NCBI GenBank assembly: GCA_016196755.1 | Contig: JACPXC010000059.1 | Location: forward strand, 1-64,000 | Source: Elusimicrobiota bacterium | Lineage (GTDB): Bacteria > Elusimicrobiota > Elusimicrobia > UBA1565 | Length of the DNA: 64,000 nucleotides | Reading direction: 5' to 3' | In this document: piece after piece, positions 36,307 to 40,319 of the stretch | Numbering within the stretch: position 1 is the first letter of the stretch | Layout of the letters: each line of letters opens with the position of its first letter | Made by a program: the position numbers and the translations under genes | Notes under the pieces: generated by a model | Database searches by the model: none | The model's input: only the letters and a program-made list of their open reading frames with translations | What the model was told of the DNA's origin: nothing

Positions 36307-37554
36307 TTACCAGCGTCGGGGAGCGCCTTTGACCGCGCGTACGGCGTCGCGCGCGATCAGGAGCTCCTCGTTGGTGGGGATGACCCAGGCTTTGAGGCGG
36401 GAGCCCGGCGCGGAGACCTCGCCTTCCTTGCCGGCCGTCATGGCCTTGTTGCGCGCGGCGTCCAGGGAGAGGCCCATCCACTCGAGGCCCTTGAGGATGC
36501 GGCCGCGGACCTCGGCCGAGTTCTCGCCGATGCCGCCGGTGAACACCACGGCGTCCGCCCCGCCCATCGCCGCCAGATAGGCGCCGATGTACTTCCGGGC
36601 CCGGGCGCAGAACATGTCGATGGCCAGGCGCGCGCGCCGGTCGCCGTTCTCGCGCTCCTCCTCGAGCAGCTCGCGCATGTCGTTGGTGAGGCCGGACACG
36701 CCGAGGAGCCCGGACTGCTTGTTGAGCAGGGTATCGATCTGGTCGAGCGTGAGGCCCTCGCGGTCGTGGAGGAACTCGATGATCGACGGGTCGATATCGC
36801 CGCCGCGCGTGCCCATGACCAGGCCCTCGAGCGGGGTCAGGCCCATCGAGGTGTCGACCGACGCGCCGCCCTTGATCGCGCAGGCCGAGGCCCCGTTGCC
36901 GAGGTGCAGGGCGACGACGTTGACGTCCTTGGGCTTGAGGCCGGCGAGCTGACGGTAGCGGTAGGCCACGTAGCGGTAGGAGGTGCCGTGGAAGCCGTAG
37001 CGCCGCAGCTTGTAGCGCCGGTAGAGCTGGTAGGGCAGGGCGTAGAGATAGGCGGTCTCGGGCAGCGTGGAGTGGAAGGAGGTGTCGAAGACCGCGCACT
37101 GCGGCACCCCTGGCCCCAGGAGCTCGCGCGCGGCGAGGATGCCCTTGATGTTGGCCGGGTTGTGCAGGGGGGCGAGCTCGATGGTGTCCTCGATGCCGTC
37201 GAGGACCTCCGAGTCTATGACGACGCATTTGGTGAACTTCTCCCCGCCATGGACGACGCGGTGGCCCACGGCCTGGATGTCGGCCAACGACGACACCCCC
37301 GGGACCTTGGCCTCCGGGGAGACAACCCAGCGCAGGATACGGTCGATGGCCGCGCGGTGGTCGCGCAGCGGCTCGGCCGTGCGCAGCTTGGCGCCCCCCT
37401 CCACCGCGAAGGAGACCAGCGCCTCGCTGCCGACCCGCTCGATGACGCCCCGGGCCAGGCGCCGGTCGGCGTTCTTGGCGATGAGGTCGAGGTCGGTCGC
37501 GATGAGCTGGAACTTGACCGAGGACGAGCCGCAGTTGAGGACGAGGACGTTCAT
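36307..37554 (-). CDS. ackA: Acetate kinase
   Basis: A 415-residue enzyme that interconverts acetate plus ATP and acetyl phosphate. The N-terminus [17 protein letters not shown] is the ATP-sugar-kinase fold P-loop; [51 protein letters not shown]-like [19 protein letters not shown] and [14 protein letters not shown] are the acetate-kinase signatures. The start is at 37554; the longer frame crosses the promoter. No Shine-Dalgarno; TATGAT lies six bases upstream. Divergent with sixA by only 17 bases. A phosphotransacetylase gene is not seen here. Confidence 0.96.
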
Positions 37555-37571
37555 GGTGCTATCATACAAGT
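37555..37571. promoter_or_regulatory. 17-bp bidirectional promoter of ackA and sixA
   Basis: Rightward TATCAT (37560-37565) and leftward TATGAT (37566-37561) overlap by five bases. Each lies exactly six bases from its start codon. Neither gene has a Shine-Dalgarno, so both messages are predicted leaderless and only one promoter could be used at a time. Confidence 0.65.
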
Positions 37572-38060
37572 ATGCGCCTTCTCCTCTTCCGGCACGGCCC
37601 CGCCGGCGACCGCCAAGCCTGGGCGAAGGCCGGAAAAGACGACGCGGTCCGGCCGCTGACCGCCGACGGGCGCGAGAAGACCCGCAAGGCGGCCAAAGGC
37701 CTAGCCAAGCAGTTCGGCCGGCTCGACCTCATCATCTCGAGCCCGCTCAAGCGCGCGGTGCAGACCGCCACCTATCTGGCCGAGCGGTTCCCTAAGGCGG
37801 CGCGCCTGGAGCGCGACGAACTCTCGCCCTCCTCCGATCCCGCGCTGGCGGCGAAGTGGCTGGCGTCATTAAAAGAGGACGCGGTGGCGGTCGTCGGCCA
37901 CGAACCCCACCTTTCGCGTCTGGCGGCCCACCTCCTCACCGGCAAGGCCGCCCCGGTCTTCGAGCTCAAGAAGGCCGGGGCCGCGCTCATCGAGCTGGGA
38001 AGGCCCAACGCGCTGGCCGCCCTGTTGGCGCCGAAGGTCCTTCGCCGCCTCGGGCGCTAG
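37572..38060 (+). CDS. sixA: SixA-type phosphohistidine phosphatase
   Basis: A 162-residue histidine-phosphatase-superfamily protein. The RHG motif [10 protein letters not shown] and the second catalytic His in VGHEPHL are present, with [14 protein letters not shown] characteristic of SixA. SixA removes phosphate from histidine residues of phosphotransfer proteins. The start is at 37572, divergent from ackA and sharing its 17-base promoter. The pairing of an acetyl-phosphate enzyme with a phosphohistidine phosphatase is interesting, since both affect phosphorelays. Confidence 0.9.
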
Positions 38061-38134
38061 ACCGAAGGGCCCACCGCGCCTTGACCCGTTGGCCCTATTA
38101 CGTTAGCATCGCGCGGTCGGCCCATGGAGGTTTC

Positions 38135-38815
38135 ATGAAACTGTTTTGCGCGCTGCTGCTGTTATCCGCTGGAACGGTCCGGGCCGCCGGCCCCGCCGTC
38201 ACGCCCGAGGCGATCCGGACGGCCGGGCAGGCAGGCTTCGGCTTCTCCGGACTCAAAGAGATCCAAAAGGGCCGAGGGGAAGTGCCGGGGATCGAGAAGA
38301 CCTCGCCCGCAGCCCCGGTCGACCCCGCCGTTCCCGCGGGCCGCTATACCGAAATCTTCGGAGGCGGGGAACGGATCATCATCGACGCGGACGGACGCCT
38401 GCGCACGAACATCGGGGTCCTGACGGCCAACGGCGTCATGGGAGCGCTCAAGATCCCGGGCGTCCTGCGCTGGGACGACCTCAACGGGCGCTTCACGGGC
38501 AAGGCCGGCTTCAGCGTGAATTTCACCTTGCTCGACGGCCGGCGGCTCACCTGCACCTGGCGCGACATCACGCTCGAGGCGGAGTTCAGCCGCCAGGGAG
38601 ACGCGCTCGACGTCAACTTCAACCACGCGCAGTCCTACTACCTGGACGTCTACGACCGCTGCCTGGCCGTGGGACGCAACCGCACGGAATTCAGCTTCGA
38701 GCGGTCGGAGCAGGCCGGCGACGCGCGCGACACTCAGGCGGCGCCGAGCATCCGCGCCTCGACGCTCCCCGCAGGGGTCCGGGCGTCGCAGTTGCCAACG
38801 ACTTCGATCGACTAG
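38135..38815 (+). CDS. Exported protein, unknown
   Basis: A 226-residue protein with a signal peptide (LFCALLLLSAGTVRAAG). The mature region is beta-rich with YTEIFGGGERIIIDADGRLRTN and DGRRLTCTWRDITLEAEFSR, compatible with a small barrel or lipocalin-like fold, but no family is recognised. A TGGAGG Shine-Dalgarno lies five bases before the ATG and a TAGCAT box near 38104, so this mRNA has a leader. It stands alone between sixA and the polyphosphate kinase. Confidence 0.65.
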   Translation: MKLFCALLLLSAGTVRAAGPAVTPEAIRTAGQAGFGFSGLKEIQKGRGEVPGIEKTSPAAPVDPAVPAGRYTEIFGGGERIIIDADGRLRTNIGVLTANGVMGALKIPGVLRWDDLNGRFTGKAGFSVNFTLLDGRRLTCTWRDITLEAEFSRQGDALDVNFNHAQSYYLDVYDRCLAVGRNRTEFSFERSEQAGDARDTQAAPSIRASTLPAGVRASQLPTTSID

Positions 38816-38861: not shown

Positions 38862-40319
38862 ATGTTCGAATCCGTAGAGATCCAGGCCAAGGTCGACAAG
38901 GCCGCCTACAAGAAGGAGTCCGAGCGCCTGCGCACGGAGCTCCTCGCCGTCCAGAAGACCCTGCCCGAGGGCAAGGTCCCGGTCGTCGTCCTAGTCTCCG
39001 GCGTGGAGACCGCCGGCAAGACCACTTTTGTCAACACCCTGCTCGAGTGGCTCGACGCCCGCGGGGTGCAGGTCCACGCTCCCCACCTCCCTTCCGACGA
39101 GGAGTCGGAGCGCCCCGACTTCTGGCGCTGGTGGCGCGCCCTGCCCGCCGCCGGCCGCGCGGGGATCTTCCTCGGGTCCTGGTACTCGGACCCCATCGTC
39201 GCGCGCGCCTTCAAGAAGTCCGACGACGACGAACTCGACGCGGCGCTCGCGCGCATCGAGCGCTTCGAGCGCATGCTGACCGACGAAGGCGTCGTCGTCG
39301 TCAAGCTCTGGCTCCATATCACGAAGAAGGAGCAGAAGAAGCGCCTCGAGTCGCTCGAGTCCGACCCCGAGACGCGCTGGCGCGTCACCGCCCAGGATTG
39401 GAAGTTCCACAAACGCTACGAGCGGTTCCTCAAGGCGTCGGAGCGCGCTCTGCGCCGCACGTCGACGGCCAACGCGCCGTGGACCCTCATCGAGGCTTTC
39501 GACAGGCGCCACATGACCCTGGCCGCCGCGCGCGCCGTCATCGCCGCCATCAAGAGCCGGCCTATCGAAGAGAAAAAGCCTTCCGCCGTCAAAGTGATGC
39601 CGGCCAAGAAGAACGTCCTGCGGTCGATCGACTATTCCCTGAAGCTCGGCGCCAAGGAGTACGACGAGCGCCTCGACGCGGCCCAAGGCCGGATCGGCAC
39701 GCTCACCCGCAAGCTGCGCCAAAAAGGCCGCTCGATGATCCTCGTCTTCGAAGGCGCCGACGCCGCCGGCAAGGGCGGCGCCATCCGCCGCCTCACGCGG
39801 GCGATGGACGCGCGGCTCTACCGGGTCATCTCCACCGCCGCCCCGTCCGACGAGGAGAAGGCCCATCCCTACCTGTGGCGCTTCTGGCGCGAGCTGCCGC
39901 GCACCGGCCGCATCACCGTCTATGACCGCTCCTGGTACGGCCGCGTCCTCGTCGAGCGGCTCGAGGGCTTCTGCTCCGTCGCCGATTGGAAGCGCGCCTA
40001 CGCCGAGATCAACGACTTCGAGGAGCAACTCATAGAGGCCGGCACGGTCGTGAGGAAGTTCTGGCTGGCCCTGACACCCGAGGAGCAGCTCAGGCGCTTC
40101 AAGGACCGGCAGACCACGCCCTATAAGCAGTACAAGATCGGCCCTGATGACTGGCGCAACCGCGCTAAGTGGGACGGCTACCAAGCGGCGGCCTGCGAGA
40201 TGATCGAGAAGACCGGGACCGAGGACGCGCCGTGGGTCTTGGTGGCGGCCGACGACAAGCGCTGGGCGCGGGTCAAGGTCGCCGAGGCCGTGGCCGAGGC
40301 CCTGACCGAAGAGCTTTAA
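38862..40319 (+). CDS. Polyphosphate:AMP phosphotransferase (two-domain PPK2)
   Basis: A 485-residue enzyme made of two PPK2 domains. The first has GVETAGKTT (47-55) and WRWWRALP; the second has FEGADAAGKGGAIRRL (about 293-308), WRFWRELP and YDRSWYGRVLVERLEGF. Two-domain PPK2 proteins use polyphosphate to phosphorylate AMP to ADP. Both halves keep a Walker A motif; in some family members only one is active. No clear Shine-Dalgarno. Confidence 0.92.
   Translation: MFESVEIQAKVDKAAYKKESERLRTELLAVQKTLPEGKVPVVVLVSGVETAGKTTFVNTLLEWLDARGVQVHAPHLPSDEESERPDFWRWWRALPAAGRAGIFLGSWYSDPIVARAFKKSDDDELDAALARIERFERMLTDEGVVVVKLWLHITKKEQKKRLESLESDPETRWRVTAQDWKFHKRYERFLKASERALRRTSTANAPWTLIEAFDRRHMTLAAARAVIAAIKSRPIEEKKPSAVKVMPAKKNVLRSIDYSLKLGAKEYDERLDAAQGRIGTLTRKLRQKGRSMILVFEGADAAGKGGAIRRLTRAMDARLYRVISTAAPSDEEKAHPYLWRFWRELPRTGRITVYDRSWYGRVLVERLEGFCSVADWKRAYAEINDFEEQLIEAGTVVRKFWLALTPEEQLRRFKDRQTTPYKQYKIGPDDWRNRAKWDGYQAAACEMIEKTGTEDAPWVLVAADDKRWARVKVAEAVAEALTEEL

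Follow-up and report, generated by a model that had tools for sequence, protein, structure and literature searches.

How two divergent genes can be expressed from almost no intergenic DNA is the question raised by the 64,000-nucleotide stretch analysed here (the window), in which acetate kinase and a histidine phosphatase are separated by 17 bp. The whole intergenic region, read directly from the sequence, is GGTGCTATCATACAAGT (37555..37571). To its left, on the reverse strand, ackA encodes an acetate kinase of 415 aa (36307..37554, ATG at 37554-37552; TIGR00016, 494 bits). To its right, on the forward strand, lies a sixA-like histidine phosphatase gene of 162 aa (37572..38060, ATG at 37572), which exceeded the 74.5-bit cut-off of TIGR00249 with 79.5 bits. 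Alignments with homologues that begin at residue 1 support both starts, and direct reading of the upstream sequences revealed no Shine-Dalgarno motif before either gene. Positions 37552-37574 read CAT GGTGC TATCATA CAAGT ATG. Within TATCATA, a -10 element for sixA, TATCAT (37560..37565, + strand), and one for ackA, TATGAT (37561..37566, - strand), share five bases, and each ends 6 nt from its ATG. The original prediction had described this gap and this overlap between the same two genes, and its coordinates, hexamers, overlap and distances all proved correct.

The distance between each -10 element and its start codon carries a consequence that the original prediction overlooked. The transcription start is expected at the seventh base after the -10 hexamer. 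A -10 element ending six bases before the ATG therefore places the expected start on the A of the ATG, and from this spacing (PMC10268837) the predicted start sites are 37572 (+) for sixA and 37554 (-) for ackA. Both mRNAs would thus be leaderless, with starts 18 bp apart. In Escherichia coli, 18 bp is the commonest start-site spacing of bidirectional promoters, a class defined by divergent mapped start sites 7-25 bp apart, and it is explained by reciprocal -7T/-11A positions and by -18T complementing +1A (PMC12825309, PMC10268837). Here, the reciprocal -7T/-11A pairs are present at 37561 (A/T) and 37565 (T/A). Provided that transcription begins at the start codons, -18T also lies opposite +1A on both strands, the complement of the A at 37572 being -18T of the ackA promoter and the + strand T at 37554 being -18T of the sixA promoter, so that all key positions (-18T, -11A, -7T, +1A) match in both directions and each start codon would belong to the other gene's promoter. 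The element also agrees with the leaderless signal of Deinococcus-Thermus, in which a TANNNT placed some 6-7 bp ahead of the ORF acts as the -10 element for leaderless mRNA (PMC12340547); at ackA and sixA alike the distance is 6 nt.

Based on this geometry, it is likely that the 17-bp gap is one shared bidirectional promoter and that sixA and ackA are both leaderless. TATCATA would act as a pseudo-symmetrical -10 region of sigma70 type, which RNA polymerase could enter in either orientation, and initiation at the A that opens either start codon would yield leaderless sixA and ackA mRNAs from opposite strands, 18 bp apart. Each of these two bases would then have a triple role as part of the start codon, as +1, and as the base whose complement is -18T of the opposite promoter. 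Leaderless translation of the two genes is predicted here from one feature, the position of the -10 elements.

The two directions differ in their other promoter elements. In the sixA direction, an extended -10 TG (37557..37558, +; positions -15 and -14) contributes 2.58 bits and is enriched in the leaderless set, and the single -35 candidate is a weak TTGAGG (37535..37540, +; 4/6 matches, 19-bp spacer) within ackA codons. In the ackA direction, the locus has no recognisable -35 and no proper extended -10. The earlier expectation that any -35 box must fall within the opposite coding region was geometrically right. A promoter scan did not list the 37555-37571 site because it requires a -35, and in the neighbouring coding DNA it showed no promoter-like site that would serve ackA or sixA. 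A weight matrix was built from 96 leaderless promoters, from which the ackA/sixA locus and its recognisable orthologues were excluded. The sixA promoter scored 10.3 bits (rank 43 of 679 upstream regions) and the ackA promoter 4.7 bits (rank 96 of 679), well below the training-set median of 9.9 bits. TATCAT of sixA is preceded by TGC and, across a 19-bp spacer, by a poor TTGAGG; ackA has neither. A lopsided promoter is predicted, in which the sixA direction, aided by the extended -10, would be strong, and the ackA direction would depend on the -10 alone, so that ackA transcription from the shared promoter might be weak.

The same spacing recurs far beyond this locus. Genes were called on 813 kb of the window's genome (L091-L130, L147 and the window) and about 1.3 Mb of relatives, with starts assigned by a simple coding-score caller blind to upstream motifs. 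In the 813-kb sample, 351 genes had 15 bp or more of space upstream; in 47 of these the end of TANNNT lay precisely 6 nt from the start, over a background of 4.8 per position. These sites also show TG at -15/-14 and a weakly marked -35 TTG, both of which are traits of sigma70 promoters. The 6-nt peak was found as well in the class members G044 (25/195, background 1.1), G090 (18/113, background 3.8) and G205 (8/96, background 2.8) and in other family members (26/134, background 1.6); it was absent in G306, G311 and G334, which belong to the phylum and lie outside the class. Shine-Dalgarno motifs peak too, at their usual distance, in the 813-kb gene-start sample, indicating a mixed genome like that of Deinococcus. 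These counts point to widespread leaderless expression in the class; no previous account of leaderless genes in Elusimicrobiota came up in an incomplete literature search. A leadered promoter of classical type lies at 38081-38135 of the window (TTGACC, 17 bp, TAGCAT, then GGAGG, with the ATG at 38135) and contrasts with the adjoining pair, predicted to be leaderless. Two genes downstream of sixA, positions 38862-40319 encode a polyphosphate:AMP phosphotransferase (TIGR03708, 672 bits).

Comparison with relatives revealed different histories for the sixA element and for the pairing with ackA. Among named genomes, a search with SixA yielded a single relative. In 15 genomes from two families, comprising all three of the window's genus and twelve of another family, sixA is preceded by TATCAT(A) at a distance of 6-8 nt from its start. 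In those twelve the gene opposite sixA encodes a CYTH domain (PF01928), and so it does in a third family; the gaps range over 20-43 bp. ATGATATCAT is the combined form of the two promoters in genomes G018 and G023, with a register of about 23 bp between start sites; this spacing is also a common bidirectional class (PMC12825309). In genus g10 the sixA element lies inside a longer palindrome, GATATCATATC. On L004-L008, L010, L011, L013, L016, L019, L020 and L023, where sixA and the CYTH gene stand head to head across 23-29 bp (20-43 bp being the range in the third family), the gap carries a conserved (G)ATATCATA(TC) element, and the pairing suggests a link of sixA to polyphosphate or triphosphate metabolism.

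A conserved ackA-sixA pairing, by comparison, was not found: it is limited to the three genomes of the window's genus, where the two genes are separated by 17 bp, by 70 bp and by a whole inserted gene, so that it is broken in two of the three, and in the other genomes compared they lie on different contigs. In the genome with the 70-bp gap (G002), ackA has an AGGAGG leader instead, which counts against the preferred reading. There (L003/L131), the ackA-ward transcript would open with a leaderless 18-codon frame that holds AGGAGG and whose end overlaps the ackA start as ATGA, possibly a leader peptide. In the genome with the insertion (G001, L002), a pcm-like gene (protein isoaspartate methyltransferase) separates ackA from sixA, and both have retained a TATNATA of their own 6 nt from the start; GCGCGTATNATAC is present as an inverted copy beside the ATG on each flank of the pcm-like gene. 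TATCAT/TATGAT at 6 nt before ackA occurs in this genome and also in five genomes of genus g5. Since the sixA promoter is kept opposite other genes, the head-to-head layout and the sixA promoter are older than the partnership with ackA. The spacing that the original prediction expected relatives to conserve is therefore only partly so, the exact ackA-sixA distance being variable and the position of the promoter before sixA being kept.

These data bear on whether the sixA promoter could be the only real one, with TATGAT a by-product of -10 symmetry and ackA transcribed weakly or from a promoter inside sixA. The difference between 10.3 and 4.7 bits is consistent with such a reading, as is the retention of TATCATA before sixA opposite a different neighbour or beyond an inserted gene. 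The ackA start, however, lies exactly 6 nt from TATGAT with no Shine-Dalgarno motif, and ackA of G001 retains TATGAT at 6 nt even though a gene separates it from sixA, which suggests that the element serves ackA. We consider a promoter for sixA only unlikely, and a shared promoter with two leaderless genes is preferred.

Pattern counts showed the layout to be more frequent than chance would give. The degenerate pattern CAH-N5-TANNNTA-N5-DTG occurred at 3 places in the 4.59 Mb genome, vs 0 for the reversed control, and 213 times in 57 related genomes, vs 119 for the reversed control (summed by hand). The strict pattern CAT-N5-TATNATA-N5-ATG, counted by hand, gave 6 vs 0 for the reversed control in the order and, across the phylum (341 genomes), 74 vs 40. 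The extra matches were mostly one-sided, with long open frames on both sides in a minority, and for that reason the excess was dropped as proof of bidirectionality. Among 162 divergent pairs from five class samples, 13 were leaderless on both sides, compared with about 10.6 expected if the sides were independent, so the class does not clearly favour two-sided leaderless pairs. Other exact 17-bp leaderless divergent pairs were seen on L071/L139, L145, L151 and L067/L133, where the genes resemble prfC, mnmA, ispH and ligA, as judged by eye from N-terminal sequence. We doubt that the class deliberately expresses close divergent genes from a single 17-bp leaderless bidirectional promoter with start codons as promoter elements. 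We regard the ackA/sixA locus as a compact coincidence of two ordinary features that probably works in both directions.

The original prediction had also proposed that a single direction would be open to RNA polymerase at any moment, which would link an acetyl-phosphate enzyme to a phosphohistidine phosphatase in the manner of a switch. Its first part holds in so far as the overlapping -10 elements fit the published 18-bp promoter, and use of both directions would necessarily entail steric exclusion; the switch itself is not supported. A shared -10 selected as a regulatory switch between acetate kinase and the phosphohistidine phosphatase would draw on the single occupancy of the site by polymerase, on the observation that in E. 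coli one direction can be repressed when its counterpart is activated (PMC12825309), and on the presence of Pta in the genome, through which acetyl phosphate can be made. Yet the ackA-sixA pairing does not extend beyond one genus and is broken within it, the two-sided leaderless pairs show no clear excess over chance, and in E. coli competition was unseen at basal activity and appeared only when one direction was strongly activated (PMC12825309). A selected switch is thus very improbable, and we saw no sign that this locus holds a dedicated switch linking acetyl phosphate with phosphohistidine. At ordinary activity, the two directions of the shared promoter would probably not disturb each other, and exclusion would matter only when one of them is strongly activated. 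Least probable of all is that TATCATA serves as an operator, or is A+T-rich merely by chance, and that leadered mRNAs devoid of Shine-Dalgarno motifs start at promoters inside the opposite genes, since the operator-like g10 palindrome around the sixA element is outweighed by the strict 6-nt spacing shared with the genome-wide leaderless class and by the lack of a promoter-like site for either gene in the neighbouring coding DNA.

The proposed shared leaderless promoter resembles several known systems. The symmetrical -10 promoters of Warman et al. (2021), as described in PMC12825309 and PMC10268837, likewise have 18-bp start-site spacing, reciprocal -7T/-11A, -18T paired with +1A, and competition for one binding site. 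As presented there, they need not be leaderless, whereas the predicted ackA and sixA starts are the start codons, with no 5' UTR and no spare intergenic DNA; the word leaderless is absent from PMC12825309 and PMC10268837. The leaderless genes of Deinococcus-Thermus (PMC12340547) also have TANNNT adjacent to the ORF, but they belong to another phylum, and bidirectional or divergent use is unmentioned there. As predicted for ackA/sixA, the bidirectional promoters of E. coli produce two mRNAs from one promoter region with starts 10-23 bp apart (PMC12825309). In several of those pairs a regulator acts at the promoter. The ackA/sixA gap shows no sign of a regulator or operator, and in evolutionary terms its two genes are recent partners. 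Bidirectional promoters and leaderless genes are each already known, and ackA/sixA would be a very compact combination of them; no bacterial report joining the two was found in an incomplete literature search.

The locus would bring these two phenomena to their natural minimum, with two complete promoters in 17 bp and zero leader. If, as seems doubtful, the class used such promoters deliberately, the ratio of the two proteins would depend on how symmetrical one hexamer is and could be altered only by touching a start codon. For the class, leaderless expression matters for the annotation of gene starts and for the regulation of divergent genes that have no room for operators.
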